Source: Arenibacter antarcticus (GTDB lineage Bacteria > Bacteroidota > Bacteroidia > Flavobacteriales > Flavobacteriaceae). Taken from it: a DNA stretch of 64,000 nt. The stretch lies in assembly GCF_041320605.1 (NCBI RefSeq), contig NZ_CP166679.1, forward strand, positions 2,280,001 through 2,344,000. Reading direction: 5' to 3'. Under the pieces are notes generated by a model, which had not been told where the DNA came from, did not search any database, and saw only the letters and a program-made list of their open reading frames with translations. Within the stretch, counting starts at the first letter, position 1; every line of letters begins with the position of its first letter. Both the position numbers and the translations under genes were made by a program. This document shows positions 5,281-56,364 of this stretch, piece by piece.

Positions 5281-5310
5281 ATCGGGAAATGCTTGAGACC
5301 ATTCCCCGAT
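5281..5310 (+). promoter_or_regulatory. Leader hairpin upstream of susC (copy 1)
   Basis: ATCGGGAAATG at 5281-5291 and CATTCCCCGAT at 5300-5310 form an 11-base stem with one A.C mismatch and an 8-base loop. It ends 55 bases before the susC start codon. Near-identical stems lie in the same place before the susC genes at 40893 and 56291. A run of A precedes it, so on the opposite strand the hairpin is followed by T6, as in a terminator for antisense transcription. The role is not known: RNA structure, operator or antisense terminator are all possible. Confidence 0.7.
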
Positions 5311-5365
5311 CTAAGAATTGTGAATTAAATAATGTTATCATTAATCATTTAATCATTACAAAATT

Positions 5366-8300
5366 ATGAAAAAATATTTCATTGTGTGTTTGCCATATTG
5401 GCAAATTCCTAAAATGGACTTGAAAATGAAATTAACAACACTTTTACTTATAGTTTCGTTGTTTAAAATCCAGGCAAATTCCTACTCTCAGACAACTAAA
5501 ATAAATTTAGATGCGGATAATCTTACTATCGCGCAGATCTTTGAGGAGATCGAAAATGTGTCTGAGTTTAGATTTTTATATGAGAGTAATCAAATTAATC
5601 TTAATAGAAAAGTAACCGTTCACCTTAAGAATAAAAAAATAACGGAAGTGCTTTATTTGCTTTTTTACGGCACGAATACGGACTATAAGGTTCTAAATAG
5701 ACAAGTAATCCTTACCCAAAATAAAATAGAAAAACCGAGGATGGGTCCGCTGAATAAAGTGAAAAATGAAGGAATGGGTGTTCTTCAAAGAGAAATTTCG
5801 GGTTTAGTAGTGGATAGAAATGGAGATCCTTTGCCTGGGGCTAACATCCTAGAAAAGGGAACCACTAATGGAACACAATCCGATTTTGATGGTAATTTTT
5901 CCTTAAGAATCAGTAATGAAAATGTCTCTTTAATTGTTTCTTATGTTGGTTTTGCCACCAAGGAAGTTGCAGTTGGCCAACAGAATAGTCTAATTATTTC
6001 GCTTGACGAAAGTACGGCAGGATTAGATGAAGTGGTTATAACAGCGCTTGGAATATCAAGAGAAAAAAAATCATTAGGATATTCCATTTCAGAGGTTGAT
6101 GGGGATGCTGTAAATTTAACACCCCAAGAGAATGTCCTTAATTCACTAGCGGGAAAAGTTACGGGAGTGAGTATATCTCAAATGGATGGTTTGGCCGGAT
6201 CGTCGGTAAATATGATCATTAGGGGGGCTACATCGCTTAGTAGTGATAATCAACCTCTATTTGTAGTTGACGGTGTTCCAATTGTAAATAGTCTTAATAA
6301 TTTTTATGAGGGAGCAGATATGGGAAATGCCATATCTGATTTGGATCCCAGTAATATTGCCAATGTTTCAGTTCTAAAAGGGCCAAGTGCTGCAGCTTTA
6401 TACGGTTCAAGAGCTGGAAACGGAGTTGTATTGATCACCACACGTACAGGAGGAGGTTCAAAAAAAGGTATTGGAGTTAATATAAGTTCTGCCATAACCT
6501 TTGATCATCCTTATAAATATATAAATTACCAAACAAAATTTGGTCCAGGAAAGGCTGGAGTTCACATGTTCGAAGAGGATGATAATGAAAGTTGGGGTCC
6601 TAGATTGGACGCTGGTGAAGAATGGGTGCAATGGAATACCAATGGACAAAAGGCTCCTTTAGTTTCGTATAACAATAGATTAACTGATTTCTTTCAAACA
6701 GGAATTACCTATACCAACAATGTGTCCGTGGGTGGGAATTATGATCTAGGCGATTTTAGAATTTCAGTAGGGGATATGAACAATACGGGCATTGTTCCCA
6801 ATACGGATTTACAGCGGCAATCCTTTAACCTAAATGGTACTTATAAAGTTTCTCCCAAATTCAGAGTCCAAGGGAATATTGGTGTGTCCGAATCAAGTTC
6901 AGATAATAGGCCAGTGGTAGATGGTGGCCGTAATACAGTGGTGAGAAGTGTTTATGAAATGTCTGCTCATGTCAATATCAATGATCTTAAAGATTATTGG
7001 GAACCTGGTTTAGAAGGAGTTTCACAGGTGAAATACAAAAACAAACAGAATAACCCTTGGTTTCTTGTGCATGAAAATACCATTTCATTTTTAAGGGATA
7101 GAACGGTGGCGAAGTTTCAATTTGATTGGGATATTATGGAAGATTTAACCCTAACAGGTAGGTATTCCAGAGATAGTTATACGGAAGGTAGGCAGTCTAA
7201 AAAAGGTTTTAGTACCTATGGGCAATTAGATGGCGGTTATAATGTGGAATCGTTGTACCGAAAGGAATCAAATTTTGATCTTATCCTGGCGTATAACAAA
7301 AAGATTAATAAGTCATGGGATATTAACTCCTTAATTGGTGTCAGTGATTTAAATATATATGGAAACTCATTAGGTACTTTGGCAGATGCCTTGGTAGTCC
7401 CAGATTTATTTACTATTTCCAATGCTGTACCAGGGACGGTTAGGTACAACAGTGAATACAATGAAAAGACAATTAAGGGAGTCTATGGTATGATTTCAGT
7501 GGGCTATGAGAATATGTTGTTTTTGGACGTTACCGGTAGAAATGATTGGTCCAGCACCTTGCCGGCAGAAAATAATTCCTATTTCTATCCGTCAGCTTCG
7601 CTAAGCCTCTTAATGTCCAATATATTCAACATGCCTTCCTGGATTCCTTATGCAAAGCTTAGAGCAGGATGGGCCAAGGTGGGAAACGATATAGCCCCTT
7701 ATCAATTGCAACAATATTTTTCTACTGCTGCAGATTGGGGAGATGCAAAACGGATGTATCAAGATGGTATACTTCGCAACAACCGTTTAAAACCTGAAAT
7801 TGCTACCTCCAAGGAAATAGGATTCGATATAAAGCTATTGGATTATAGATTGGGATTGGAAGCCACTTATTATGAGGTTGAGAATAAAAACCAAGTGCTT
7901 AATATCTCCGTACCTGTGGAATCTGGTGCAACCAATAAATTAATTAATGCTGGGCTAATTTCCAGTAGGGGTTGGGAGATTGGATTAAATTCAACTCCAA
8001 TTATTGCCGGAGATTTTAAAATGGATTTAGGTATAAATGTTTCCAGAAATAGGACCAAGATAGAAGAGCTTTCGGATGGAATGGAATTCTTCAATTTTGG
8101 GGAAGAGGGAGATGCTATTGTCAGAACTTATGTGGGGGAAACCATTGGAGATATCTATGCTAGACCAGTATTAACGGTAAAGGATGAAAATTCGCCGTAT
8201 TTTGGATATCCAATAATTTCCAATGGAGGTTTATTACAAAAGGACAATAACCCAGAGAACTTAAAGAAGATCGGTAATTTCAATAACGACTTTACTATGG

Positions 8301-8977
8301 GATTTCAGCCCAAATTCTCCTATAAATCACTTTCCTTATCGGCCAATATTGATTGGCGACAAGGGGGGGAATTCTTTTCAGGATCTATGCGGTTCTTTAG
8401 AAACAATGGACAACTGGAAAATACCCTTTCTGGTACACCCTATGACCCCAATAGTGATATTGTAGAACAGATTAAAGCTAACCCAGACGCCTATTTTGGG
8501 TATTGGGTAGGTGGCAGAACGGAAGAACTAGGAGGTTTTGATTGGGGCAACCCATCATTAGGTAGGGAAAATGATGCCAGTTTCCATCCTGGGGTTCGTG
8601 AGGTAGTGGTTGGCGGAAACAAGGAGTTTGTAGAAAATCTTGGAGGACCAGGGACGATTTGGAAAACTCCGTTTGACGCCAATAAAAATTCAGCAAGAGA
8701 ATTTGCGGAACATAATATATACAGTGCTACTTATGTGAAATTACGTGAATTGGCATTGACTTATGACATTCCAAAGACCTTGATCCAGAAAACGGGGCTT
8801 CAGAAAGTCTCAGTTTCCCTAGTTGCTAAAAATTTATTTGAATGGACTGAGGCAGGTATCAATTTTGACCCGGAAAGGGCCTTTAAGGGAGGTGACAATT
8901 GGGTGCAGGGAATTGAATATTATAATACCCTGCCATGGGTAGCCTCTTATGGTTTTAAATTAAATATTGATTTGTAA
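5366..8977 (+). CDS. SusC/RagA TonB-linked outer-membrane transporter (locus 1)
   Basis: 1203 residues; an outer-membrane porin-like transporter that imports oligosaccharides under a SusD lid. A long basic N-terminus (with KMDLKMK) precedes the signal helix, which ends near residue 41 (ANSYSQ). Next come an STN signalling domain (about 45-117), a carboxypeptidase-regulatory-like domain (about 143-215, REISGLVVDRNGDPLPGANILEKGTTNG), the DEVVITALG linker, a plug domain (about 235-365, with VLKGPSAAALYGSRAGNGVVLITT) and a 22-strand-type barrel to the C-terminus. The STN domain implies signalling to the FecR protein upstream. The susD gene starts 11 bases downstream. Confidence 0.95.
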   Translation: MKKYFIVCLPYWQIPKMDLKMKLTTLLLIVSLFKIQANSYSQTTKINLDADNLTIAQIFEEIENVSEFRFLYESNQINLNRKVTVHLKNKKITEVLYLLFYGTNTDYKVLNRQVILTQNKIEKPRMGPLNKVKNEGMGVLQREISGLVVDRNGDPLPGANILEKGTTNGTQSDFDGNFSLRISNENVSLIVSYVGFATKEVAVGQQNSLIISLDESTAGLDEVVITALGISREKKSLGYSISEVDGDAVNLTPQENVLNSLAGKVTGVSISQMDGLAGSSVNMIIRGATSLSSDNQPLFVVDGVPIVNSLNNFYEGADMGNAISDLDPSNIANVSVLKGPSAAALYGSRAGNGVVLITTRTGGGSKKGIGVNISSAITFDHPYKYINYQTKFGPGKAGVHMFEEDDNESWGPRLDAGEEWVQWNTNGQKAPLVSYNNRLTDFFQTGITYTNNVSVGGNYDLGDFRISVGDMNNTGIVPNTDLQRQSFNLNGTYKVSPKFRVQGNIGVSESSSDNRPVVDGGRNTVVRSVYEMSAHVNINDLKDYWEPGLEGVSQVKYKNKQNNPWFLVHENTISFLRDRTVAKFQFDWDIMEDLTLTGRYSRDSYTEGRQSKKGFSTYGQLDGGYNVESLYRKESNFDLILAYNKKINKSWDINSLIGVSDLNIYGNSLGTLADALVVPDLFTISNAVPGTVRYNSEYNEKTIKGVYGMISVGYENMLFLDVTGRNDWSSTLPAENNSYFYPSASLSLLMSNIFNMPSWIPYAKLRAGWAKVGNDIAPYQLQQYFSTAADWGDAKRMYQDGILRNNRLKPEIATSKEIGFDIKLLDYRLGLEATYYEVENKNQVLNISVPVESGATNKLINAGLISSRGWEIGLNSTPIIAGDFKMDLGINVSRNRTKIEELSDGMEFFNFGEEGDAIVRTYVGETIGDIYARPVLTVKDENSPYFGYPIISNGGLLQKDNNPENLKKIGNFNNDFTMGFQPKFSYKSLSLSANIDWRQGGEFFSGSMRFFRNNGQLENTLSGTPYDPNSDIVEQIKANPDAYFGYWVGGRTEELGGFDWGNPSLGRENDASFHPGVREVVVGGNKEFVENLGGPGTIWKTPFDANKNSAREFAEHNIYSATYVKLRELALTYDIPKTLIQKTGLQKVSVSLVAKNLFEWTEAGINFDPERAFKGGDNWVQGIEYYNTLPWVASYGFKLNIDL

Positions 8978-8988
8978 ATATAAAACAG

Positions 8989-10680: not shown

Positions 10681-10775
10681 AAATGGCCTAGAAAGACTTC
10701 CCCTTAATTGGTTGAAAGCTGATGTTAATTTATTACGGATGTCCTAATGGAGCTGGTTAAATTAATGTAGTAAAT

Positions 10776-10807
10776 AAAAACCTGTGAAGATATCTTCACA
10801 GGTTTTT
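10776..10807. terminator. Bidirectional intrinsic terminator
   Basis: AACCTGTGAAGAT and ATCTTCACAGGTT form a perfect inverted repeat centred at about 10791, flanked by A5 on the left and T5 on the right. It therefore has a T-tract on both strands. It sits between the converging susD (ending 10680) and gltD (ending 10846) and should terminate both. Confidence 0.9.
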
Positions 10808-10845
10808 ATATTTCTTTTAATGAATAAGAGTAATTTTTAGTGGGA

Positions 10846-12312: not shown

Positions 12313-12319
12313 GTTTCGA

Positions 12320-16828: not shown

Positions 16829-16845
16829 ATATTATGATATTTATT

Positions 16846-37449: not shown

Positions 37450-40400
37450 TTAGAAAGATAAATTGAATCCAAGGGTGTATATCTTCGTAGATGGATAATT
37501 GTAGAAATTATTACCTAGCAATTCTGTTTCAGGATCAAAATCCTTTAATGATGTAAACGTAAGAAGGTTCTGTGCATTACAGAAGATTGATAACTTGTTA
37601 AGTCCAATCTTAGTTAACAATTCTTGCTTAAAATCATAGGTAAGTTGTATGTTTTTCAACCTTAGGTAAGAAGCATCAAGAAGCCAATAATTACTATCTC
37701 TAAAAAGCGTGTTTTGCGTATCTTGATATCTTGTGATAATTGGAAAACCTGCATCTCGATTGTCCGGGGTCCAAGAATCATTCGCCCAACCCACTGGCAA
37801 GGCGGTTCCAAACCAAAAAGGTACTCCCGTTACATGTTTATTATATGTTTGCACATCTCCAACCCCCTGCCAAAATGTATTTAGAGAAAGATTTTTATAA
37901 GCTAATTTGATGTTAAATGAATAGGTGTATTTTGGTATGGTATTACCATCCGCTACTCTGTCATTTTGATCAATAACACCATTATTATCCAAATCTTTAA
38001 ATTTAATATAACCTGGTTGAGTATCCGCACCTTGAAAGGCATGGGAGTCAATTTCCTCTTGAGATTGAAACAAACCATCGGCCTGATAAAGATAAAACTG
38101 ATTAATCGGTTTCCCTTCTTCTGTGATATTAAAAGGCCCCCTACCATCCGACGATAAATCTTCGAGTATTATCTCACCATTTAAATCCACAACCTTGTTG
38201 GTAATATAGGTAAAATTACCAGAAACATCATATCTGAAATCACCAAGAATATTTCGATGTCCCAATGCTATTTCCACACCTTTATTTTCAATTGAACCTA
38301 TATTTCTAATTGGACCACCTAGAGAACCTACCTGAGAAGGAATCCCAACGGGTCGTAAGACGTCCTTAGTGGTTTTATTGAAGTACTCAATACTGGTAGA
38401 GAATTTCCCACCTAAAAAAGTGGCATCTATCCCGAAATTGGAGATTGTAGTAGTTTCCCAAGAAATCTCGTCATCATTATCTACAAGAACTGCTGTACCA
38501 GGGTTAATATTACCTCCGAAGATATAATCCTGGCCGGGCGCTATTAAATCCAAATAACGAAATAAGCCTATTCGTTCATTCCCTAATTGCCCCCAAGAAG
38601 TCCTAACCTTTAGTTGGCCCAACCAATCAACATCTTTAAGGAATTGTTCTTCGTTTAATCTCCATCCTGCTGAAACTGATGGGAAAAAGCCCCATTTGTT
38701 GCCTTTGGCGAACTTAGAGGATCCATCGTAGCGAAAATTCGCCTCAAATAGATATTTACTATCCAATACGTAATTGGCACGTCCAAAGTAAGATATTAGG
38801 GTAGATTCGGTTGAAGTCCCGGATACAACAGGATTGGTGCTACCCGCATTCAGCTCATATAAATTATTGCTAAGGTACCCTTCATTACTTGCGGTAAAAA
38901 AACTCCGATCGAATTTCTCATAGCTATTTCCTAGTAAGATGGATAAATCCGTATCATCGCTGAATGCTTTGTTCCAATTTAAAGTGTTAACCACAGTCAA
39001 ATTTTGAGATTCATCATCTCTTTGGTCAACTCCTCTTTCTTGTCCTTGAAAGGTTACGAAAGGATTTCCTCCAGCCTGAATTTGCGTAGGCTCTTTTGTT
39101 TTAGCGTCGTACAATACAATACGGGGAGTGAAAATTTTTCTTCGTTGAGCATCATTTGTGTAACCTAGATTAAGTTTATAATCTATATTAAACGGAAGCT
39201 TAATTTCAGCATAGGTATTTAAAAACAATTTAAGGCCCCTTATATTACTATCACCTTCATCTGCAAGTGCCAGAGGATTTCGAAATCTTCGATGTCCAGG
39301 GATATCAAAAAAATTCATTCCGTAATTTCCATCTTCTAATTTTGCTGGGTGATAAGATTGAGCTTTAAAAATCATTTCCATGATTTCCGTTATTCCCACA
39401 ACAGGCTCGTTTCTAGTTTTATGTGAAACATTAAAAGTCCCTCCAATTGTTATGCTTTTGTTCATAACCGAACTAACATTAAGGTTTGCTGTATACCTTT
39501 CCGAATCGGTGCTCCTCAAAACCCCATTTTGATCAAGGAGGCCCAAGGACAGGGAAAAGGAAGTTTTGTCACTCCCACCGGTGAATCTTAAATTATGCTC
39601 ATGCATCAATGCTGGATCGAACATTATATCATGCCAATCATTACTCGGATAGGTATAGGGATCAGTTTGCATGCCGGTACTATATTCGTCAATTAAACTT
39701 TGCGGAAAAACCAGTGCGTTCTCGCTGGTACCAAAGTTTAATTGTGCTTGGGAATATAATTCCATCCACCTAATAGGATCTTTTATGACCCTTGGTAAAG
39801 AGATTACCTCTTGGATACCGACCGATGAGCTATAGGTTATTTCAGATTTTTGGGATCCCTTCTTAGTTGTTACCAATACCACTCCGTTAGCCGCACGTGA
39901 GCCATAAATTGCAGCAGAAGCAGCATCTTTTAAAACAGTAATACTTTCAATGTCATTAGGATTTAAATCGTTCATAGAGAATTCAATTCCATTCACCAAA
40001 ATTAGAGGATTATTATCGTTCAATGTGCCAACTCCTCTTACCCTAATAGTTGCAGCATCGTTTCCTGGTTGACCTCCGACTTGATTTATATATACACCTT
40101 GCATTCCCTGAAGTGCCTGACTAGCACTGGTAATTGGCCTATTCTCTAAATCTTCACTTCCAATACTGGAAACAGCACCGGTTAGGTTCAATTTCTTTTG
40201 AGTTCCAAAACCTACCACCACCACCTCGTCAAGCCCTGCGGAACTTTCCTCTAGAATTATATTAAGATTGGTCTGTTGCATTACATCAATCTCTTTGGTA
40301 GCAAAACCGACATACGAAACTACTAAAATCGCATTGTTGTCTTTTAAATCTATAGAAAAATTGCCATCAAAATCTGCTTGTGTACCATTGGTAGTCCCTT

Positions 40401-40893
40401 TTTCTAAAATGTTAGCACCTGACAATGGTATTCCTTCATTATCCATTACTGTTCCCATTACATTCTGTTGCAATTCTTGAATTTGAATATAACTTTGATC
40501 GTAATTGGTAGTTTTTAATTTAGTGGGAACAACATCTGGTTTTTTTAATAAAATTTGCTTTTTACGAACCTCATAGGTAATATTTGTTCCAGTAAAAAGT
40601 TTATCGAGAATATCAGAAATTCTTTCTCTATCCGCTTTTATATCTACTGTTATTTTCACATCTATTTTCTGTGTGTCAACAAAAAATTTAAATTCTGAAA
40701 TGGTTTCAATTCGGCTAAGGACTTCACTTAGCTTTACATCGTTCATTTCAAGAGATATCCTAGTATTTTGTGAATAGGTGGTGGCATTGATCTGCAACAT
40801 AAAAACGAAAAGGAAAAATGCAGTCAGCTTCATTTTAAGATCAAATTTTGGAGTGAGCATAAAGGAACACCCGAATATAATCAGTTTTTTCAT
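37450..40893 (-). CDS. SusC/RagA TonB-linked outer-membrane transporter (locus 2)
   Basis: 1147 residues from the ATG at 40893; an upstream in-frame start would add 24 residues over the conserved hairpin region, so the MKKLIIFG start is chosen. The extended N-terminus contains FDLKMKLT, also seen in the other two SusC proteins here. Order: signal peptide, STN domain (about residues 42-118), carboxypeptidase-regulatory-like domain with GTVMDNEGIPLSGANILEKGTTNGTQADFDG, DEVVVVGFGTQKK, a plug domain with VLKDAASAAIYGSRAANGVVLVTT, and a barrel ending LGFNLSF. The STN domain implies control through the FecR protein at 41049-42215. Confidence 0.95.
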   Translation of the reverse strand: MKKLIIFGCSFMLTPKFDLKMKLTAFFLFVFMLQINATTYSQNTRISLEMNDVKLSEVLSRIETISEFKFFVDTQKIDVKITVDIKADRERISDILDKLFTGTNITYEVRKKQILLKKPDVVPTKLKTTNYDQSYIQIQELQQNVMGTVMDNEGIPLSGANILEKGTTNGTQADFDGNFSIDLKDNNAILVVSYVGFATKEIDVMQQTNLNIILEESSAGLDEVVVVGFGTQKKLNLTGAVSSIGSEDLENRPITSASQALQGMQGVYINQVGGQPGNDAATIRVRGVGTLNDNNPLILVNGIEFSMNDLNPNDIESITVLKDAASAAIYGSRAANGVVLVTTKKGSQKSEITYSSSVGIQEVISLPRVIKDPIRWMELYSQAQLNFGTSENALVFPQSLIDEYSTGMQTDPYTYPSNDWHDIMFDPALMHEHNLRFTGGSDKTSFSLSLGLLDQNGVLRSTDSERYTANLNVSSVMNKSITIGGTFNVSHKTRNEPVVGITEIMEMIFKAQSYHPAKLEDGNYGMNFFDIPGHRRFRNPLALADEGDSNIRGLKLFLNTYAEIKLPFNIDYKLNLGYTNDAQRRKIFTPRIVLYDAKTKEPTQIQAGGNPFVTFQGQERGVDQRDDESQNLTVVNTLNWNKAFSDDTDLSILLGNSYEKFDRSFFTASNEGYLSNNLYELNAGSTNPVVSGTSTESTLISYFGRANYVLDSKYLFEANFRYDGSSKFAKGNKWGFFPSVSAGWRLNEEQFLKDVDWLGQLKVRTSWGQLGNERIGLFRYLDLIAPGQDYIFGGNINPGTAVLVDNDDEISWETTTISNFGIDATFLGGKFSTSIEYFNKTTKDVLRPVGIPSQVGSLGGPIRNIGSIENKGVEIALGHRNILGDFRYDVSGNFTYITNKVVDLNGEIILEDLSSDGRGPFNITEEGKPINQFYLYQADGLFQSQEEIDSHAFQGADTQPGYIKFKDLDNNGVIDQNDRVADGNTIPKYTYSFNIKLAYKNLSLNTFWQGVGDVQTYNKHVTGVPFWFGTALPVGWANDSWTPDNRDAGFPIITRYQDTQNTLFRDSNYWLLDASYLRLKNIQLTYDFKQELLTKIGLNKLSIFCNAQNLLTFTSLKDFDPETELLGNNFYNYPSTKIYTLGFNLSF

Positions 40894-40945
40894 AGCTTTG
40901 ATATGGTTATTAATTGGTAACTCTGTTTTTGACCGCACCTTTAGG

Positions 40946-40972
40946 TCGGGAAATGTTACGAGCATTTTCCGA
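40946..40972 (-). promoter_or_regulatory. Leader hairpin upstream of susC (copy 2)
   Basis: In the sense (minus) direction: TCGGAAAATG, a 7-base loop, CATTTCCCGA, about 53 bases before the susC start. Stem, loop size and position match the hairpins before the other two susC genes. On the plus strand the stem is followed by T6, as in a terminator for antisense transcription. Confidence 0.7.
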
Positions 40973-41048
40973 TTTTTTATTAGGGGTTGGTCCTATATTT
41001 ACTTTTATTAAATGTTATATTTCATTGGCAATTTTTGGTTATAGTTAG

Positions 41049-42215
41049 TTATTTTATAATTATTTGATTTTCTTCCATTGAATAATCTATTCCGTAAGTC
41101 CTATCTAGAATTTCCAGAATCTCTTCTATACTTTCTTCCTCAAAATTTGCACTGAAAGTATTATTGTCTAAATCTTCATTTGTGTTAATAATGGTTACAT
41201 TGTAACGTCGCTCCAATTGCTTACGGATTTGTTTAAAGGGTACGTCCCTAAAAATGAGCTTGCCTTGCAACCAAGAAATATAAAGGGAAGTGTCCACCTT
41301 ATCTATATTGAAATCCAGTCTTTCCTTGCTCCACGTGCCTCTTTGTCCGGGAACAAGATGTAAGTTTATCCGGTTCTTTTCTGTGGATATGGAATCATAC
41401 AACTGTACACTTCCGGAAACTAAGACCGTACTAGTTTGTCTATCTTCGCTGTATGCAGAAACATTAAATTCTGTGCCTAGCACCCTTACGTTAACAGCTC
41501 CTGTTTTAACTATAAATGGAAGCTCCTTATTCTCGGTTACGTTAAAAAAGGCTTCTCCTTTTAGAGATACCTCTCTAAAATTCTCGGCTGCAAAACTTAT
41601 AGGGTATCTTAAAACAGATCCAGAATTAACGTATACTATAGTGCCATCCGACAGTTCTACTTCGAACTTTTTTCCATAAGGGACACTTAGTTCATTATAT
41701 TTTATTTCTTCAGAATGGTATACTGGATTATATTTAATTTTATCCCCTGTCTGCACAGCGATAATATTCCCTTCAGAATCCATAATATTATTACTACCTG
41801 TCCCTTTAATTATCTCTAGCTTACCATTACCTAATTGTAGATTTACTTCTTTATTAGCGATAATTAGGGTTTCTTGCCCATTGTTGGATCTTGATAAGAA
41901 TGTCAACCCTATCCCTAATCCAACTAAACCTAAAAAAATGGCGGCATATTTCCAATATGTTGGAATCGCTCGCCTTTTTGGTTTTTTCACAGGGATAGAC
42001 GGTTTTCTAATTTGATTCAGAAAATCTTCGAAGGCACTTTCTGGATCTGTTTTTAAATATTTCTTGGATAAAAGATAATCCATTTCCATGAAATCCGTAA
42101 AATTCTTTTTCACTTCTTCCGAGGAATATTCCTTTAGATAGTCATACATCTTTGCCTCCGTCACTTTTCCATCCAAGTAATCTTGAATAAGATGCTCTAA
42201 GTTACTATTCTTCAT
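41049..42215 (-). CDS. FecR-family anti-sigma factor (locus 2)
   Basis: 388 residues. A cytoplasmic N-terminal domain (about 1-80) precedes one transmembrane helix (about 88-108, WKYAAIFLGLVGLGIGLTFL). The periplasmic FecR domain shows LSVPYGKKFEVELSDGTIVYVNSGSVLRYP and VSLKGEAFFNVTENKELPFIV, and a C-terminal STN-like domain (LIFRDVPFKQIRKQLERRYNVTI) completes it. It lies between susC (same strand) and the divergent sigma-factor gene at 42350, and should hold that sigma factor until SusC binds substrate. Confidence 0.93.
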   Translation of the reverse strand: MKNSNLEHLIQDYLDGKVTEAKMYDYLKEYSSEEVKKNFTDFMEMDYLLSKKYLKTDPESAFEDFLNQIRKPSIPVKKPKRRAIPTYWKYAAIFLGLVGLGIGLTFLSRSNNGQETLIIANKEVNLQLGNGKLEIIKGTGSNNIMDSEGNIIAVQTGDKIKYNPVYHSEEIKYNELSVPYGKKFEVELSDGTIVYVNSGSVLRYPISFAAENFREVSLKGEAFFNVTENKELPFIVKTGAVNVRVLGTEFNVSAYSEDRQTSTVLVSGSVQLYDSISTEKNRINLHLVPGQRGTWSKERLDFNIDKVDTSLYISWLQGKLIFRDVPFKQIRKQLERRYNVTIINTNEDLDNNTFSANFEEESIEEILEILDRTYGIDYSMEENQIIIK

Positions 42216-42349: not shown

Positions 42350-42937
42350 TTGTACAAGAAAGATACTTTATTTCTAGACGGCCTTAAAAATGGAGAAGAA
42401 AGGGCTTATGAAAACCTATACCATAAATACTATACAAGTCTAGTAATGTATTGCTATAACTTAACCAAGGACCAAGACCGAGCAGAGGATATTGTACAAC
42501 AAACCTTTGTGAAAATTTGGATTAAAAGGGAAACCCTAGATATCCATTCTTCTTTTAAGAATTATCTTTATCGGTCTGTTTATAATACCTTTCTTAAAGA
42601 ATACCGAAAGCTTAAAAAAGAAGAGCTTGCACTTTTAGAGCTCAAAAATGATATCCTAGTAGATTTTGAGGAAAGAGATGAAGCAGTTTTAGAAGAAAGA
42701 ATGAAACTGTTAGAAAAGGCCATAGATCAACTCCCGAAAAAAAACAAGGTGGTTTTTTTGCTCAGCAAGAAATCTGGGTACAAGCACAAGGAAATCGCGG
42801 CCCAATTGGATATTTCAGAAAAGGCGGTGGAAAAACATATTAGTCGTGCAACACAGTCCATAAAGACATGGCTCAAGGAGAAAAAAACAAGTTTACTGAT
42901 AGTATTCTTGAGTTGTAATAAGAGTTGTAATAATTAA
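42350..42937 (+). CDS. ECF-type RNA polymerase sigma factor (locus 2)
   Basis: 195 residues from a TTG. The first in-frame ATG lies inside region 2 (about codon 33), so it cannot be the start. Region 2: ERAYENLYHKYYTSLVMYCYNLTKDQDRAEDIVQQTFVKIW (about 17-60). Region 4: QLPKKNKVVFLLSKKSGYKHKEIAAQLDISEKAVEKHISRA (about 125-168). The basic and hydrophobic tail is unremarkable. It is divergent from the FecR gene of locus 2 (134 bases apart). Expected to drive the locus 2 susC promoter. Confidence 0.9.
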   Translation: MYKKDTLFLDGLKNGEERAYENLYHKYYTSLVMYCYNLTKDQDRAEDIVQQTFVKIWIKRETLDIHSSFKNYLYRSVYNTFLKEYRKLKKEELALLELKNDILVDFEERDEAVLEERMKLLEKAIDQLPKKNKVVFLLSKKSGYKHKEIAAQLDISEKAVEKHISRATQSIKTWLKEKKTSLLIVFLSCNKSCNN

Positions 42938-43624: not shown

Positions 43625-43678
43625 AATAGAGACACTCTCCCATACCTCCTTTCCTTGTGCATCACTTGTTGAATTTAT

Positions 43679-43813: not shown

Positions 43814-43879
43814 CATCCCCCTTTCCTTGAGGGATTTTATTGTAATATATGATCCCAATTTTTATCTATAAGGATTAAT

Positions 43880-45433
43880 TTAATTTACAGGCTCAAACTG
43901 GGCTTTTAAATAATCTCTCCAATATTCTAAATATAGTTCGTCTGAAATATTGGGGTTTAAACCTCTGGATTCCATTTGATTTTTAAATAGTTCGGTCATC
44001 ATATTTTTTGCATACTCAATTTCGTTCGAATCTTCGGGGTATTGCCCTTTATCTGTTTTCCCTATCCATTTTTCTAATTCATTGCTCAATAGCTTTTTTT
44101 CTTTTTCATAACGTTTGTCGTTGATTATGTTAAATAATTCATTGGGGTCATTCTTCAAATCGTAAAGCTCTTCGCTAGCTCTTTTATTCTTCATAAATCT
44201 AGCTTGCTCTTTTGTAAGCAAGCTATCTTTGTACATAATCTGCATGAGCGTCAGTATTGGATATTCATACTTCTTATAAGCATTAAATTGAGTGTATGGG
44301 AGTTCCGGATAGTAATTTCTTATATATTTAAAATCATTGCTACGCACCATTCTTATTCGATCGACCGTCTCATCCCTTCTGTCCCTCATCCCAAAAATAT
44401 ATTTTCTGGGCAGGGCGTTTTGGGCTAGAAAATCACGGCCTTGAATGTTATTTTTGAATTCTATATTGGCGATATTTAAAGTCGTTGGAGCAATATCTAC
44501 ATTGCTAACAAGATTACTGTTACTTGTACCTGGTTCAATTTTTCCTGGCCATTTAACAATTAAGGGCGTATGAAGACCACCATCGTATAAAAACTGTTTC
44601 TCCCTTACATGAGGCCTGCCTTGGTCCCCGAAAAAGAATACCACTGTGTTATCTGAAAGTCCCTCAGCTTCCAATCGATTGAGGATTTCACCTACTTTTT
44701 GATCCATTAGTTGCACTGTCTCTAGATACATTGCCCAATCCTGTCTTACCATTAGCTTATTTGGATAATAAAGTGGCAATTTTATAGTATTAGGGTCAAT
44801 GGGATGGGAAGTGTCTTTTTTAAATGGGCGATGTGGTATGGGAATTTGAATTTGGGAGAAAAATGGCTGCCCTTTTTTTCTTTCCTTCCAATCGGTTCCA
44901 TGATATAAGTCTTTTTTATCATGGATAAAATTGTAATCTGTTTTACCCTTGTTGGTAACGAAATAGCCAGCATCCTTAAAATATTCTGTGATAGGTTTGA
45001 CCCCATTTGGCAAGGAGGCTTTGTATCTGGTCCTGTGTTGCTGAGAACCAATACTTCCGGGGTACATGCCCGTAATTAAGGTTGATCTACTTACCGAGCA
45101 CACGGCTGCCACAGTATACGTATTCAAATATTTTACGCCTTCAGAAGCGAGCTTATCCAGATTGGGAGTGTAAACCAGGGATTCTCCAAAACAATTTAGA
45201 TCGGGGCCTAGATCATCTGCGATGATCCAAAGGATATTTGGCCTATCATCCATTGCGTTGAGTTCTTTTTTTCTGGTATTAAAATCAGGATTATTTTTAT
45301 CTATTTTACTTCCACAACTGATTATCGTTAAGAGTGAGAATATTAAAAAGTAAATTGTCTTATATGGTTTCAAATCCGTTTTGATAACATGGATTTTGAT
45401 AGGATTTTTGTTTGTCAAATAATTTAAACTCAT
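43880..45433 (-). CDS. Sulfatase lipoprotein with atypical CSVSR active site (locus 3)
   Basis: 517 residues. A long N-terminus leads into a lipoprotein signal with C40 (LLTIISCGS). Metal ligands D73-D74 are in IADDLGPD. The formylglycine motif is VCSVSRSTLITGMYPGSIG with C112, but residue 114 is Val where the motif C-x-P/A-x-R has Pro or Ala. Other sulfatase blocks (GKTDYNF, FFFGDQGRPHVREKQFLYDGG) are present. The overall pattern suggests heparan-N-sulfatase-like (S1_8-type) enzymes. The start overlaps the stop of the upstream sulfatase-GDPD gene by 4 bases, so the two are coupled. Confidence 0.88.
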   Translation of the reverse strand: MSLNYLTNKNPIKIHVIKTDLKPYKTIYFLIFSLLTIISCGSKIDKNNPDFNTRKKELNAMDDRPNILWIIADDLGPDLNCFGESLVYTPNLDKLASEGVKYLNTYTVAAVCSVSRSTLITGMYPGSIGSQQHRTRYKASLPNGVKPITEYFKDAGYFVTNKGKTDYNFIHDKKDLYHGTDWKERKKGQPFFSQIQIPIPHRPFKKDTSHPIDPNTIKLPLYYPNKLMVRQDWAMYLETVQLMDQKVGEILNRLEAEGLSDNTVVFFFGDQGRPHVREKQFLYDGGLHTPLIVKWPGKIEPGTSNSNLVSNVDIAPTTLNIANIEFKNNIQGRDFLAQNALPRKYIFGMRDRRDETVDRIRMVRSNDFKYIRNYYPELPYTQFNAYKKYEYPILTLMQIMYKDSLLTKEQARFMKNKRASEELYDLKNDPNELFNIINDKRYEKEKKLLSNELEKWIGKTDKGQYPEDSNEIEYAKNMMTELFKNQMESRGLNPNISDELYLEYWRDYLKAQFEPVN

Positions 45434-47646
45434 GGCTTATTTATATTTTTCAAGGCTTCTCCCGCCTCTATTCCTAAATCGACCTCAATAATATCTATCC
45501 CGCTTCCAAGAATATTCAAATACCCATTAATCAACTGGACTTTATCTATTTTTCCTGTAGCGAATTGTTTATCGATGTTCCTGGAACTACCTTGGATGGA
45601 CATGGTTCCCCGTTCATGAAGTAATTCTATAATTTCTTTATTGGGAGGTAGATCATGGCTAATGAAACCAATAACGTTCTGCCACGGAACCCCACTTTCA
45701 TCTAAGTCCTTAATATTACTTTTTTTCCCCATCATAACTTCCATTACAATATTATTGTTTAGCTGGTAAGCTTTTTTAATATCTTCTAAGGAATATGCTA
45801 TAACAATGGCATTGGCTTCGGCATTGTTTTCCACTATTTTCTGAATTCGCATTTCAATTGGAACATCTTTTTGATCTAATACAAGGATCGTCTTGCCTTT
45901 GGCCCATATAAGTGCTTCATCCAAGGTAGGGATCTGATAGTTGGTCAATTCCCCTTCTGTATCCTTCAATCTCAGTTTTTTCAACTCCGACAAGGTATAA
46001 TCAGAAACTTTTCCCGACCCATTGGTTGTCCTATCCAGAGTTGGATCGTGCATTAGTATGATTTCTCCATCCTTGGTGTAATGGGGGTCGATTTCCAAAA
46101 TTGCGGGGGTGTGCAACAGCGTATTATTAAAGGTGGCGATGCAATTTTCCGGGAAACCTTGTCGAGGTCCGCCCCTATGTGCACTCACGATTGGTTTCTT
46201 TACTGGAGAATATCTAAAAAAATCCTTAAGCTGCTTTGAAGATTTTATATCATAAGTATGCAATTGATATGGGAAATAGGGAGCATTCTTTGTAGAAGCA
46301 GTCTCGAATATATTTTTTATGTCCAAAAGTATATCGGGGTGCTGTTCTGCCACATTATGTTTTTCTTGGCGGTCCAGCAGTAAGTTGTAGAGCTCTATAG
46401 TTTCATTTTTGCTATCTGGGGTGTGAGTAGATACTGCCTTCCATTTTCCCATTCTTATTGCCCTACTGCTTAGCCAATTCCTTGGTAAAGCGTTGTTGGG
46501 TTTGTCCCAACTATAATTATAAGTGTAATTTTCCCAATATAGATAAGGATGTGGAAATTGTACTCCTGTACCGAATAGGGTATTGTAAAACGAAATTCCA
46601 TCAATAGGTTCTTTAATTGAAACCGACGAAATTTCAGCAATCGTAGGCATAAAGTCCCATGCGGCAAGAATTTCATCAGATACTTGGCCGCCTTTAATTT
46701 TTTGTGGCCAATAGGCTATCAATGGAACGCGGATGCCTCCTTCGTACATATCACGTTTTGCACCTCTGAAACCTCCATTACTATTGAAGAATTTACCAAA
46801 TTCTGGATTGGCCCCATTGTCGCTTGTAAAGAATATTATGGTGTTTTCATCTAAATTCTTTTCTTTTAAATGATCGATTATGCCCTTCACGTCTTTATCT
46901 AAACGAGATATCATTGCGGCATAATTCTTAAATTTTTCTGGCCAATCTTGATTTGCGTAAAGTGAATTATCAGGTATTACATGCTTTCCATGTGGCATGG
47001 TATAGGGCAAATAGAGAAAGAATGGTCGCTCAGCCTGTTGTCCATCAATAAAATCCTTTGTTTTATCAATAAAAAGATCATGGCTGTAAGTTCCTTGTCT
47101 TCCATCTTCGTTCTCATCTAGTAAAATCTTTTTTTCATTTTCGAAAAGGAAGGGAGGATAGTAGTTGTGTGCGTTAATTTGATCAAGATAACCATAAGAA
47201 TAATCAAATCCCTGAGATTTTGGTCCCTTTCCTGGTTCCCCTAACCCCCATTTTCCGATGAGTCCGGTCTTATATCCATTGTTCTTGAGGATTTCTGCGA
47301 TGGTCTTCTTTTCAGTCGGTAAGGCGGGGTCCGCCATTTCATCTGTTAAAAAATTACCTCTTATAAAAGTATGCCCGGTATGCATGCCTGTTAAAAGTGC
47401 TTCTCTTGATGGAGCACAAACAGTAGAGCCGGAATAGTAATTGGTGAATTTCATCCCGCGCTCCGCCATCTTATCAAGATTTGGAGTGTGGATCATTTTT
47501 TGTCCGTAACTCCCAAGATCGCCATAGCCAAGATCGTCAACCATAATTAGAATGATATTAGGTCTTTGGTTATCGATTTGGGCATATAGTGTGATTAAAC
47601 TAGGTTGAACCATTAACATAATGGCCATAATGATTGATCGGTTCAT
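45430..47646 (-). CDS. Sulfatase-glycerophosphodiester phosphodiesterase fusion (locus 3)
   Basis: 738 residues with two catalytic modules behind one signal peptide (about 1-22). Residues 25-470 form a sulfatase: D37-D38 in MVDDLGYGDLGSYG, C77 in VCAPSREALLTG, GKWGLG and TSDNGANPEFGKF. Residues 484-738 form a GDPD domain: H490-R491 (SAHRGG), E518 and D520 (LEIDPHYTKDG), H533-D534 (LMHDPTLDRTTNGSGKVSDYTLSELKKLRL). Both active sites look intact. The product could remove sulfate and cleave a phosphodiester on one substrate. No stop or frameshift separates the modules. Confidence 0.9.
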   Translation of the reverse strand: MNRSIIMAIMLMVQPSLITLYAQIDNQRPNIILIMVDDLGYGDLGSYGQKMIHTPNLDKMAERGMKFTNYYSGSTVCAPSREALLTGMHTGHTFIRGNFLTDEMADPALPTEKKTIAEILKNNGYKTGLIGKWGLGEPGKGPKSQGFDYSYGYLDQINAHNYYPPFLFENEKKILLDENEDGRQGTYSHDLFIDKTKDFIDGQQAERPFFLYLPYTMPHGKHVIPDNSLYANQDWPEKFKNYAAMISRLDKDVKGIIDHLKEKNLDENTIIFFTSDNGANPEFGKFFNSNGGFRGAKRDMYEGGIRVPLIAYWPQKIKGGQVSDEILAAWDFMPTIAEISSVSIKEPIDGISFYNTLFGTGVQFPHPYLYWENYTYNYSWDKPNNALPRNWLSSRAIRMGKWKAVSTHTPDSKNETIELYNLLLDRQEKHNVAEQHPDILLDIKNIFETASTKNAPYFPYQLHTYDIKSSKQLKDFFRYSPVKKPIVSAHRGGPRQGFPENCIATFNNTLLHTPAILEIDPHYTKDGEIILMHDPTLDRTTNGSGKVSDYTLSELKKLRLKDTEGELTNYQIPTLDEALIWAKGKTILVLDQKDVPIEMRIQKIVENNAEANAIVIAYSLEDIKKAYQLNNNIVMEVMMGKKSNIKDLDESGVPWQNVIGFISHDLPPNKEIIELLHERGTMSIQGSSRNIDKQFATGKIDKVQLINGYLNILGSGIDIIEVDLGIEAGEALKNINKP

Positions 47647-47834
47647 ATTTGTGAGGATTTAGTTCAATTAATGTTTAAGAAATATGGTCACTAAATATCA
47701 TTGTTGGGATTAGATTTTTAATAATTGATATTCTATTCCAGATAATTATGTTGGCCCCGATGGAAAGAGCAATTATCTCATTGAGACAATAGGATTGATC
47801 GGACTTGATAAATTTCACGATGGACAATGAAAGT

Positions 47835-48965: not shown

Positions 48966-48981
48966 TTTGAATCTGTTTATT

Positions 48982-50277: not shown

Positions 50278-50284
50278 AGATGGT

Positions 50285-51208: not shown

Positions 51209-51239
51209 CTAGGCGTCGTTTTTATCTATGACAATAGTT

Positions 51240-52883: not shown

Positions 52884-52913
52884 AATTGTATGTTTTTATG
52901 TTTATTAAATGAA

Positions 52914-55900
52914 TTAAAAGCCAATATTAAGACCTAAAGAAAAAACCTTTTGCTGGAAATAATACCTCGCCCTTTTACTGCCGCCACTGACTCCTATCTC
53001 TGGGTCAAGATAATCTTCCGATGAAAATGTTAAGAGATTTTGTCCCGAAAGGAAAATTCTTAATGATTGCATTTTCATCTTTTCCAATACGTCTATTGGA
53101 AGATTAAACCCTAATTCTAAATTCTTCAGTCGAAGGTAACTTCCATCCCGTATCCACCAAGAGGAAGCTTTAGTGCTATTAGCGCTGGGCGATGGTAAAA
53201 TGATGGGGTATTTGGCGTCCCTATTCTCTGGGGTCCAATAATCCAACTGATCCTCGAAAATTTTTGCACCATTAAAAAATGGGTTTGCGGCTTCGTTGGT
53301 TAGAAGGAAATTATTCTTTGCAGCACCTTGCCATAGCATGCCTAGGTCAAAGTTCTTCCATTTTAAATTGCCTGTAATACCATAAATGATTTGGGGGAAA
53401 GCAGAGTCTCCAATAACAACTTCGTCGTCGTTGTTGATTTTTCCATCATTATTAATGTCTTCGTATTTTATATCTCCTGGCTGTAACTGACCAAATTGGG
53501 TAGCAGAGGCATCAATTTCTTCCTGAGACTGGAAAAGGCCTATTGCCCTAAGTCCAAATTGTGTGTCAAGTGGTCTTCCAGTTCTACTTCTATTTGGATT
53601 GTTCAGGGTGGATTCATTCTCAAATGTCTGTATCAATTTATTCTTAGCGTAAGAAAGATTCAGACCAAAATCGACTCTAAGGTCATTTGAAAAGCTATTT
53701 TGTGAGGTTAAGGAAAAATCAAATCCTTTATTTTCCATAACTCCTGCATTAATTTGAGAAATCCCTATTCCATATTCCAAAGGGACTACTGAATTTGGGG
53801 AAACCAACATATTTGATCGTTTTTCCTTGAAAAAATCAAGTTCAAAACCTAATCGACCCGCTAGAAATGTTCCTTCCAGCCCCACATTGATCTTGTTGGC
53901 TACTTCCCAAGTAATATTTACGTTCGGTTCCTTGCGCTCCACCGCACCCTGTACTTGAGAACCACCAAATACATAGCTGTTAACAAGATCAAATGAACTT
54001 AAATATTGAAAGGGCCCTCCTGCTAGGTTGCCCGATTTCCCATAGGAACCACGTAGTTTAAGACTATTGATCCAGGAAACGTTGTCCTTAATAAAAGACT
54101 CTTCGGACAACCTCCAACCTAGAGATACCGCGGGGAAAAAGGCATATCGGTTGTTTGGAGCGAAATAATAATGACCATCATATCGTCCGGAGAATTCAGC
54201 AAGATATTTTTGGGAATAATCATAGGCAAGCCGATATACCAAGCCCAATTGCTTGTTGCTTTTTGAAGACCCATTATTATCAAAATCATTCTTAGAAGAA
54301 CTTCCCATCGAGAGCTCATCAAGGTCGACCTGATAATTGATTCGAGAGGCAGAAAAATCTATTCCATCCCCATTTCTTTGCTCAGCAACAAATAGAGCAT
54401 CAATACCATGCTTTCCAAATCTGTTGTTATAGGTAATATAGCCTTGAATGGTTGTGTTTATCCTCTCGCGAAAAGACTGACTTAGTCTTGGTGATGTAAC
54501 ACCTCCATTTCTTTCAATAAACTCGTCATTACTATCTAAGGCATAAAAAACATATGGTGTTTCCCACTGTTTGTTTAAGGTATATCCTTTGTCATATGAT
54601 ATTACTCCTTTTAAACTTAATCCAGGAACTGCTGGAATCTGTTGCTCTATGGATAACTGTGTGTATAGGGTATTTTTTTTGTCGTTGTTGTAGCCACTAT
54701 CGTAAATGGAAGGTAATAGTTTATTTCCCGGTAAACCATTGCTAAAGGATAATTGATCTAGGAACAATGGAGGTTGCTTGGTTGCTTGTGTATATATGCC
54801 TGCTCCGTTTACAGATCCGGGATTTTCAGTCACTTCTAAACTACCTTTGATATTGAATGAGATTAATGTTGAGTTAGTTGCGTCAAAATCAATGTTGGAC
54901 GCTAGATTATATCTTGAGAAATTAATTGTTTTTACGGAACCTTGTTGATACAGATAACCCAGTGAGCTAAAAAACCGAATTTTGTCAGAACCACCTGAAA
55001 AAGTTAGATTGTGGTTTAACATCGGTGCATTAAAATCAATTACTTCTTTGACCCAGTCGTGATTCGGATAATGATCAGGATCACTACCATTTTTATACTT
55101 TTGAAGTTCTTCCTCGCTATAAGCTGGATCTAATCCAGCGTTTTTACTGGCCACATTCAGTGCAGTGGCAAAGTCATAAGAATCCAAGTATTTTGGATAC
55201 CGAGTGGGTCGCTGGATACCGAACCATGTATTGTAATTGAAATTGATTTTTCCCTCTTTACCTCTTTTAGTGGTTATAACAACCACACCATTAGCACCGG
55301 CCAAGCCATAAGGGGCAACCGCAGCCGCATCCTTTAAGACTGTAATACTTTCTATTTCATTGGGGTCAATTTGGGAATAGCTCCGTGGAACTCCGTCAAC
55401 AATAGTTAATGCTCCAGAATTAGAACCAATTGTTCCAAGACCTCTTACCCTAATTTCTGCAGCATCTGCTCCTGGTTCTCCACTAGGCTGAAACGCAAGT
55501 ACTCCCGAAACTCTTCCAGCAATACTGTTATTTATATTCGCTACAGGATTGTCGGATACCATATCGCCTTTTAAAGTTGATATAGAAGCTGTTACGGAAC
55601 TTTTTTTCTGAGTTCCATACCCTACTACTACAATCTCATCCAAGGTTGCTGCACTCTCTTCCAATGTAATAGTAAGATTACTCTGCCCGTTTAGTACAAC
55701 TTCTTTTGTCGCGAATCCGATATAAGAAACTGTTAGTGATGCTTTTTCGCTTTTAACCATTAAAGTAAAATTCCCATCAAAATCAGTCGTAACTCCGTTT
55801 GTTGTGCCTTTTTCAATCACATTCGCACCTGGTAGTGGAGTGCCATCGTAATCTATCACCATCCCACTTATTTCAAATTGTGCTTTGTCTAGTATAATAG

Positions 55901-56291
55901 ATTTTTCATTTGGCTTTGGTTGAGGCTCTATTTGCGCTCGTAGAATAATCTGCTTTTCATACATTTTATATTCGATATTTGATTCTGAAAAAAGATCATC
56001 CAATACTTCCGATAACCATTTATCTGATACATTAACGGATACGGATTTTCTATAATCAACCTCTTTGTCTTTATATACAAACTTATAATCGGTTATCACC
56101 TCAATCCTATTTAAGACTTTCTCTAAACTAACATTGTTAAAGTTTAAGGTGACTTTTGCATTTTGGCCATAGGAAGAATTGGCATTCATTTGAAACACTG
56201 AAATGATCAAAATGAGAGCGGTAATTTTCATCTTTAAATCTAAGCACATCTGAAAAGGAATATGCTGTCTTTTAATAATTGGTTTTTTCAT
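52914..56291 (-). CDS. SusC/RagA TonB-linked outer-membrane transporter (locus 3)
   Basis: 1125 residues from ATG 56291; an upstream frame would add 22 residues through the conserved leader hairpin, so MKKPIIKRQ is preferred. The long N-terminus has LDLKMKIT as in the other two. Order: signal peptide ending SSYGQ, STN domain (about 43-117), carboxypeptidase-regulatory-like domain (GMVIDYDGTPLPGANVIEKGTTNGVTTDFDG), DEIVVVGYGTQKK, a plug with VLKDAAAVAPYGLAGANGVVVITT (APYGLAGANG instead of the usual AIYGSRAANG), and a barrel ending LGLNIGF. Signals to the FecR protein at 56441-57586. Confidence 0.95.
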   Translation of the reverse strand: MKKPIIKRQHIPFQMCLDLKMKITALILIISVFQMNANSSYGQNAKVTLNFNNVSLEKVLNRIEVITDYKFVYKDKEVDYRKSVSVNVSDKWLSEVLDDLFSESNIEYKMYEKQIILRAQIEPQPKPNEKSIILDKAQFEISGMVIDYDGTPLPGANVIEKGTTNGVTTDFDGNFTLMVKSEKASLTVSYIGFATKEVVLNGQSNLTITLEESAATLDEIVVVGYGTQKKSSVTASISTLKGDMVSDNPVANINNSIAGRVSGVLAFQPSGEPGADAAEIRVRGLGTIGSNSGALTIVDGVPRSYSQIDPNEIESITVLKDAAAVAPYGLAGANGVVVITTKRGKEGKINFNYNTWFGIQRPTRYPKYLDSYDFATALNVASKNAGLDPAYSEEELQKYKNGSDPDHYPNHDWVKEVIDFNAPMLNHNLTFSGGSDKIRFFSSLGYLYQQGSVKTINFSRYNLASNIDFDATNSTLISFNIKGSLEVTENPGSVNGAGIYTQATKQPPLFLDQLSFSNGLPGNKLLPSIYDSGYNNDKKNTLYTQLSIEQQIPAVPGLSLKGVISYDKGYTLNKQWETPYVFYALDSNDEFIERNGGVTSPRLSQSFRERINTTIQGYITYNNRFGKHGIDALFVAEQRNGDGIDFSASRINYQVDLDELSMGSSSKNDFDNNGSSKSNKQLGLVYRLAYDYSQKYLAEFSGRYDGHYYFAPNNRYAFFPAVSLGWRLSEESFIKDNVSWINSLKLRGSYGKSGNLAGGPFQYLSSFDLVNSYVFGGSQVQGAVERKEPNVNITWEVANKINVGLEGTFLAGRLGFELDFFKEKRSNMLVSPNSVVPLEYGIGISQINAGVMENKGFDFSLTSQNSFSNDLRVDFGLNLSYAKNKLIQTFENESTLNNPNRSRTGRPLDTQFGLRAIGLFQSQEEIDASATQFGQLQPGDIKYEDINNDGKINNDDEVVIGDSAFPQIIYGITGNLKWKNFDLGMLWQGAAKNNFLLTNEAANPFFNGAKIFEDQLDYWTPENRDAKYPIILPSPSANSTKASSWWIRDGSYLRLKNLELGFNLPIDVLEKMKMQSLRIFLSGQNLLTFSSEDYLDPEIGVSGGSKRARYYFQQKVFSLGLNIGF

Positions 56292-56338
56292 TATTTTTGT
56301 GGTTTTTAGGTGGTTAAATAATTTAGTCAAATCGTAAA

Positions 56339-56364
56339 TCGGGAAATGCTGACACATTTCCCAA
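56339..56364 (-). promoter_or_regulatory. Leader hairpin upstream of susC (copy 3)
   Basis: In the sense (minus) direction: TTGGGAAATG, a 6-base loop, CATTTCCCGA, about 48 bases before the susC start. This matches the hairpins at 5281-5310 and 40946-40972 in arm sequence, loop size and distance. On the plus strand it is followed by a weak TTTT. Confidence 0.7.

Follow-up and report, generated by a model that had tools for sequence, protein, structure and literature searches.

In the genome of Arenibacter antarcticus, a stretch of 64,000 nucleotides (contig NZ_CP166679.1, positions 2,280,001 to 2,344,000 of the forward strand; hereafter the window) holds three loci of the polysaccharide-utilisation type, each with an extracytoplasmic function (ECF) sigma gene, fecR, susC and susD and with sulfatase genes near. 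At each locus, an inverted repeat is flanked by the fecR gene (FecR and FecR_C domains) and the susC gene (plug, CarbopepD_reg_2 and STN domains), and the ECF sigma gene adjoins. Judged by its sequence, this hairpin is very probably the intrinsic terminator of a dedicated short cis-antisense RNA over the susC leader. On the antisense strand, all three copies possess a T-run past the stem and a TAnnTTTG -7 box on or adjoining the susC start codon. The features of the three copies, including a micro-ORF (micro open reading frame) in the sense leader, are as follows.

5281..5310, minus strand: copy 1, hairpin, probable terminator of the antisense transcript (T-run 5281-5276 on the minus strand)
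5275..5354, minus strand: copy 1, putative antisense transcript of about 80 nt (ends predicted from the -7 box and the T-run)
5359..5366, minus strand: copy 1, -7 box of the predicted antisense promoter, TAATTTTG (on the sense strand CAAAATTA), which overlaps the start codon of susC
5247..5252, plus strand: copy 1, micro-ORF ATG TAA, preceded by GCCT
5366..8977, plus strand: copy 1, susC with STN domain
4030..5217, plus strand: copy 1, fecR anti-sigma gene
3345-3899, minus strand: copy 1, ECF sigma gene
40946..40972, plus strand: copy 2, hairpin, probable terminator of the antisense transcript (T-run 40973-40978 on the plus strand)
40905..40979, plus strand: copy 2, putative antisense transcript of about 75 nt (predicted ends)
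40893..40900, plus strand: copy 2, -7 box of the predicted antisense promoter, TAGCTTTG (on the sense strand CAAAGCTA), at the start codon of susC
41008..41025, minus strand: copy 2, micro-ORF ATGAAATATAACATTTAA, preceded by GCCA
37450..40893, minus strand: copy 2, susC with STN domain (start 40893, not 40965)
41049..42215, minus strand: copy 2, fecR anti-sigma gene
42350-42937, plus strand: copy 2, ECF sigma gene
56339..56364, plus strand: copy 3, hairpin, probable terminator of the antisense transcript (short T-run 56365-56368 on the plus strand)
56304..56370, plus strand: copy 3, putative antisense transcript of about 67 nt (predicted ends)
56292..56299, plus strand: copy 3, -7 box of the predicted antisense promoter, TATTTTTG (on the sense strand CAAAAATA), which stops one base short of the susC ATG
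56419..56427, minus strand: copy 3, micro-ORF ATG ATT TAA, without GCC context
52914..56291, minus strand: copy 3, susC with STN domain (start 56291, not 56357)
56441..57616, minus strand: copy 3, fecR anti-sigma gene
57639-58187, minus strand: copy 3, ECF sigma gene

The three inverted repeats lie where the original prediction had placed them, with the arms and loops it described; the domain matches agree that all are situated between fecR and susC, and copies 1 and 2 have a strong antisense T-run, as it had noted, whereas that of copy 3 consists of four T only. Its distances from the stem to the ATG (55, 53 and 48 bases) hold for copy 1, but the gaps counted for copies 2 and 3 are 52 and 47 bases (ATGs at 5366, 40893 and 56291). 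In these two susC copies, the longest ORFs begin at an ATG within the hairpin arm (40965 and 56357), and comparison with other susC starts places the starts at 40893 and 56291; an annotation taking the longest ORFs would be 72 and 66 bases too long. The pattern YGGRAAATGN{4,10}CATTYCCCR is found at exactly three places in the 4.69-Mb one-contig genome, namely the window copies, and at none when read backwards; it misses variant copies before other susC genes of the same genome. No family of Rfam 15 reaches its gathering score at the window hairpins, the only matches being a tRNA and part of a group II intron elsewhere in the window. The latter, domain RF02001 (33977-34102, plus strand; 38.5 bits, gathering score 32), has a type I restriction-modification cluster (27089-33417) on one side and a sulfatase gene on the other. 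Sulfatase genes at 1703-3289, 34387-35784 and 43880-47646 lie near all three loci, which suggests the utilisation of sulfated glycans.

Further junctions were chosen by the STN domain (PF07660) of the susC protein, not by the hairpin, to avoid selection bias. The STN search covered the same genome, 31 genomes of the family (15 positive) and 18 genomes of the genus (all positive). Of 184 junctions entered, 182 were read, and 118 non-redundant ones were obtained once near copies were dropped, comprising 74 from the genus and 44 from other Flavobacteriaceae genera. The fecR neighbourhood was checked at the three window copies, the other junctions being tested for the STN domain of susC only. The hairpin search is strand-neutral: Watson-Crick pairs are scored, G.T and A.C count as equal, and the cut-off is a score of at least 18 within -130 to -15. 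The controls consist of 153 other genes of the same genome (a 400-kb sample) and 118 base-shuffled junctions; the shuffles for hairpin and micro-ORF counts preserve base composition only, not dinucleotides.

By this measure, a hairpin exists at 102 of the 118 STN-susC junctions, compared with 35 of the 153 other genes and 14 of the 118 shuffled junctions, so the enrichment that had been proposed as a check is present. The hairpin occurs at 63/74 junctions of the genus and 39/44 in the other genera, where 13 of 14 genomes carry one or more in place. Its 3' end is located at -65 to -45 from the ATG in 96 of the 102 STN-susC cases versus 7 of the 35 control hairpins. The three window hairpins are members of a large conserved set. 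A further STN-susC of the same genome (L006, G000:C1:4306860-4307009) contains an in-frame TAA and a hairpin unlike the usual form, and is perhaps a decayed susC copy.

In an RNA stem, G.U pairs and A.C does not, and each becomes the other on the opposite strand. Across the 102 hairpins, 129 wobbles pair on the antisense strand only and 6 on the sense strand only (p=3.6e-31), with antisense:sense ratios of 79:3 in the genus and 50:3 in the other genera of the family; 86 hairpins are purely antisense and three purely sense. Because related sequences are not independent, one hairpin was also counted per genus or metagenome-assembled genome (MAG), the first listed of each among 33 named loci with the hairpin in place: 20 favour the antisense strand, none the sense strand, and five neither. 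Furthermore, AAAA stands just before the stem, corresponding to a T-run on the antisense strand, in 88/102 hairpins, and TTTT just after it in 3/102. The mean folding energy is -16.0 kcal/mol as antisense versus -11.4 kcal/mol as sense, and the antisense fold is more stable by more than 1 kcal/mol in 90 of 100 hairpins, the sense fold in 5. Copy 1 (-18.0 versus -10.8 kcal/mol) and copy 2 (-15.6 versus -7.7 kcal/mol) follow this preference.

The stem also covaries, as the original prediction had proposed. Among 1000 cells (10 pairs in 100 hairpins), 157 contain double changes, compared with 29 in shuffles, and none of 500 shuffles reaches 157. These 100 hairpins were picked by pairing score, which makes the percentage of paired cells (98.6% as antisense versus 88.6% as sense) high by construction; the double changes and the wobble asymmetry are not forced in this way. 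An alignment holding both strands of many hairpins was left out of the pair counts, and the scores of the hairpin model served solely for ranking hairpins, not for the strand test. The six seed hairpins of the model gave neither a double change nor an excess over shuffles in the pair counts. Stem pair 6 is G.U in 50/100 hairpins, and from this antisense-biased G.U we infer that the sense leader is kept open. As in an antisense intrinsic terminator, the stem is maintained by compensatory change and is followed by a T-run.

At the other end of the predicted RNA, the sense strand reads CAAAnnTA at the ATG in 71 of the 118 junctions versus 2 of the 153 control genes, and the relaxed form YAAAnnTA in 94/118 versus 4/153. 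In Flavobacterium psychrophilum, sigma-A starts carry TAnnTTTG at -12 to -5 (PMC9723704). These counts strongly suggest that CAAAnnTA is an antisense sigma-A -7 box, and the spacing of the F. psychrophilum box would put the antisense start near -12 from the susC ATG, where the sense base is C in 57%. The composition departs from that of the control starts, with C at -7 in 0.70 versus 0.10 and T at -1 in 0.92 versus 0.40; control start contexts are A-rich (A 0.61 at -11). With these ends, the predicted antisense RNA has a median length of 77 nt (quartiles 74-79, 5-95% range 70-83). Box and hairpin occur together: the relaxed box is found at 90 of the 101 junctions with a hairpin versus 4 of the 17 without (p=5.6e-8). 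In the same region, many STN-susC proteins begin with MKK-x(~15)-LKMKLT followed by a hydrophobic signal core (for example 5366-5440, 40893-40820 and 56291-56215), and the upstream part of the predicted antisense promoter falls within this coding stretch.

Both elements are specific for STN-susC. Of 80 named loci, 76 could be placed, comprising 41 STN-susC and 35 non-STN susC, the latter defined by a frame upstream too short for STN (at most 243 nt). The hairpin is in place at 31/41 STN-susC versus 1/35 non-STN susC, a score of at least 18 is reached anywhere in 35/41 versus 7/35, and the relaxed box is present in 29/41 versus 0/35. When the hairpin model was searched against 18 genomes, 71 of the best 96 places (down to E 9e-6) precede an STN match, 70 of them in the right orientation. 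Among the other 25, 15 of the 20 examined precede susC, as do both places in the A. antarcticus genome, giving 88 of the best 96 before susC, with three of the 96 not read; of the five examined places without susC, two resemble ordinary terminators and one is maybe a broken susC. In the A. antarcticus genome itself, all 8 places at E<=0.001 are situated before susC, yet six of these built the model.

Outside the family, 17 of 148 genomes in a phylum sample (A. antarcticus included) have a model match at E<=0.001. Three other Bacteroidia genomes, those of Phocaeicola massiliensis, a Bacteroidales isolate and a Dysgonomonadaceae MAG, supplied 26 STN-susC junctions, of which 17 carry the hairpin and 15 the hairpin together with the relaxed box. 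In P. massiliensis (Bacteroidaceae), a stricter terminator test finds terminator and box at 3 of 9 STN-susC (predicted lengths 97, 105 and 133 nt) and a terminator without box at one more (141 nt). The elements accompany most STN-susC read in Flavobacteriaceae and occur in other Bacteroidia families, and non-STN susC lack them. The wobble bias, the A-run before the stem, the -7 box on the start codon and the absence at non-STN susC are the reasons for reading the hairpin as an antisense terminator, and they bear out the suggestion in the original prediction that it ends an antisense RNA. At the level of sequence, the structure of this terminator and its strand are established, and an antisense RNA is predicted at these loci.

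Other explanations can be given for the same elements, and the strand-specific signals discriminate among them. An attenuator or riboswitch in the susC leader, one of two alternatives in the original prediction, would employ a hairpin of the sense RNA, which does fold (the sense mean given above), in copy 3 better than the antisense; however, most copies have at least one pair that is lost on the sense strand, 6 sense-only wobbles stand against 129 antisense-only ones, and the sense TTTT after the stem is almost absent (3/102). The sense attenuator was rejected on the wobble asymmetry and is highly improbable. The other alternative, a dyad in the DNA to which the ECF sigma factor or some other regulator binds, is just as improbable. 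It would account for the recurrence of alike arm sequences (GGGAAATG/CATTTCCC), but the arms covary, some copies (L055, L056 and L085) have quite different arms, and a dyad would show no preference between A.C and G.T mismatches. In addition, a sense 5' end mapped in Bacteroides thetaiotaomicron lies far upstream, inside the anti-sigma gene, 291 nt from susC (PMC11501099). The dyad was rejected on the wobble asymmetry together with the variability of the arms.

Two further readings accept parts of the antisense architecture. In one, regarded as unlikely, the CAAAAnTATGAAAAAA context acts as a translation signal for these susC genes and the antisense RNA begins elsewhere, within susC; the usual A-rich start contexts and the missing -33 box speak for it, whereas C at -7 and T at -1 match the promoter box and not the control start context, and the CAAAAnTATGAAAAAA context is found in 0/35 non-STN susC. 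In the other, also given little probability, the hairpin stops any antisense transcription entering from susC and thereby shields fecR and the sigma gene, with no dedicated small RNA. Such a terminator needs no promoter of its own, in keeping with a -33 box that is not enriched, but it would leave the box on the ATG (71/118 versus 2/153), its coupling to the hairpin and the near-constant distance between the two (the length quartiles above) unexplained, and Bacteroides antisense RNAs of this sort are seen on Northern blots (PMC7366714).

Several observations weigh against the preferred reading, an antisense RNA with its own promoter and terminator. Bacteroidetes sigma-A promoters possess a -33 TTG box, and at the right spacing an antisense TTG is not enriched (19/118 versus 23/153 controls). 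Copy 3 has only a four-T run and one antisense C.A mismatch near the stem base, and folds better as sense (-17.9 versus -11.4 kcal/mol); a strict consensus terminator scan gave no match at copy 1. At 17 of the 118 junctions there is no hairpin (by the criterion under which 101 have one), including 3 of the 9 STN-susC of the A. antarcticus genome (L008 and L010, degenerate-looking, and L012, with none). The signal is weaker outside Flavobacteriaceae: the wobble bias is 17:6 in the three other Bacteroidia genomes, where the hairpin frequency (17/26) is also lower, and 11:4 in a class sample, in which 11 of 30 STN places score, 5 have both hairpin and box, and some are not terminator-like. The predicted lengths (70-83 nt, 5-95%; about 80, 75 and 67 nt in the window) lie at the lower edge of the 78-128 nt of the DonS-type antisense RNAs of Bacteroides discussed below. 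Finally, the antisense RNAs of polysaccharide-utilisation loci (PULs), now numbering 32 in B. thetaiotaomicron, show both anti-correlation and positive correlation with the PUL, and functional work is called for (PMC10994844); with positive correlation in some, repression may not be general.

For the antisense RNA with its own promoter and terminator, the following mechanism can be proposed. RNA polymerase with the housekeeping sigma factor would bind the TAnnTTTG -7 box on the susC start codon, transcribe away from susC from about 12 nt before the ATG for about 75-80 nt, and terminate at the stem with its T-run, at least 45 nt upstream of the ATG. The resulting RNA would be fully complementary to the susC leader except for roughly its last 12 nt, and its pairing may block ribosome entry or provoke decay, with polymerase collision possibly adding to the effect. 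By analogy with the DonS family, repression of susC-susD in this manner is rather likely. Leaky transcripts would stay silent until FecR releases the ECF sigma factor and the sense mRNA comes to be in excess; the constitutive antisense RNA would thus set a threshold that ECF-driven sense mRNA has to exceed. In PUL24 of B. thetaiotaomicron, the sense 5' end in the anti-sigma mutant, 291 nt upstream of susC and inside the anti-sigma gene, is ascribed by the authors to the sigma factor of the PUL (PMC11501099); if a similar start is valid here, the sense leader holds the whole antisense target. Predicted duplexes for five copies of the A. antarcticus genome reach -113 to -138 kcal/mol with their own leader versus -31 to -59 kcal/mol with other leaders, and the main target of each antisense RNA is therefore expected to be its own susC. 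If the reading is correct, changing wobbles to Watson-Crick pairs should reveal a sense hairpin, and changes at C-7 should abolish the antisense promoter.

The micro-ORF lies in the sense leader, in the stretch from fecR to the hairpin. An ATG followed by one codon and a stop exists within -200 to -85 of susC at 76 of the 118 junctions, compared with 13 in shuffles and 13 of the 153 control leaders, commonly as GCC[TA]ATG-x-TAA. A micro-ORF is present in all three window copies (5247-5252, 41025-41008 and 56427-56419, the last without GCC context), and the motif is found in 0/35 non-STN susC. An A-run lies at -14 to -11 before its ATG, where control genes likewise have A. The context GC[CT][TA]ATG occurs in 47/118 junctions, and a stop within 6 codons follows in frame in 46 of the 47, versus 9 and 24 in the other two frames; when all forms except ATG-x-stop are pooled, 25/26 are in frame (p=6e-7 against 0.51). 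In two sets from other families the context appears in 6/26 and 7/30, all in frame (6/6 and 7/7). Two results count against translation: in three other Bacteroidia genomes, with all ATGs counted, quick stops have no frame excess (7 versus 8 and 6), and the named loci form a weaker replicate (context in 17/41; in frame 15/17 versus 10 and 8). The in-frame stop is conserved in Flavobacteriaceae, with fewer cases in other Bacteroidia. GCC[TA]ATG could conceivably be an ECF -10 box or another ECF promoter element, but because the stops are in frame, a translated micro-ORF is preferred. No report of such a micro-ORF was found in the open-licence literature on upstream ORFs.

Taken together, the Bacteroidia fecR-susC junction may be a two-part RNA switch, composed of a constitutive antisense RNA and a translated micro-ORF (ATG-x-stop) upstream in the sense leader, a proposal that we advance tentatively, as a doubtful possibility. 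In such a switch, the antisense promoter would be written into the susC start codon, G.U pairs would tune the terminator stem to fold mainly as antisense, and a ribosome that starts and stops at once on the micro-ORF would tune the antisense pairing or the entry of the next ribosome into the leader. The micro-ORF is thus an additional testable part of the junction.

The original prediction knew of no named element of this form, but the DonS family of Bacteroides has antisense RNAs in this PUL position. DonS belongs to a family of cis-antisense RNAs of 78-128 nt that diverge from susC homologues and affect them negatively, and ten further DonS-type RNAs are given for B. thetaiotaomicron, five of them seen on Northern blots (PMC7366714). 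The family was described in Bacteroides fragilis and B. thetaiotaomicron by Cao et al. 2016, as cited in PMC7366714 and PMC10994844. The mechanism of DonS is unknown according to PMC11697453, which also ties host-glycan PULs to ECF sigma/anti-sigma pairs. Similar to DonS, the predicted RNA is antisense to the susC start, divergent from susC, short and equipped with its own terminator, as far as the sequence tells, and fecR and an ECF sigma gene lie beside all three window copies. DonS-type antisense RNAs accompany PULs with an ECF sigma/anti-sigma pair. Furthermore, hairpin and -7 box are found at 3/9 STN-susC of P. massiliensis. The position and operon type of the elements fit the DonS-type PUL antisense RNAs of Bacteroides, the predicted lengths fall at the lower edge of the DonS size range, and the elements probably work like DonS. 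In contrast to DonS, with which they were compared by description only, they occur in Flavobacteriaceae and are shorter (median 77 nt), and their recurring arm sequence, wobble bias and micro-ORF are absent from the DonS descriptions in the excerpts of PMC7366714 and PMC10994844. Nothing closer on flavobacterial PUL antisense RNAs was found in the open-licence literature; PMC9723704 only offers its list of antisense RNAs as a point of departure for work of this kind in flavobacteria.

Intrinsic (rho-independent) terminators share the GC-containing stem of 9-11 pairs, the short loop and the T-run on one strand, but the hairpin here stands at a fixed place before one gene family and has an internal G.U at pair 6 in half of the hairpins. 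Plasmid copy control and type I toxin-antitoxin systems also utilize short cis-antisense RNAs, fully complementary to the leader and made from a constitutive-type promoter; in contrast, the RNA predicted here would act on a nutrient importer that an inducible sigma factor controls. PUL antisense RNAs are known from gut Bacteroides, and with the junctions described here, RNA-seq observations in a few species would become a rule with a fixed anatomy that predicts the RNA ends. The kind of element is known, but its spread, the promoter on the start codon, the stem folding better as antisense and the upstream micro-ORF appear new.

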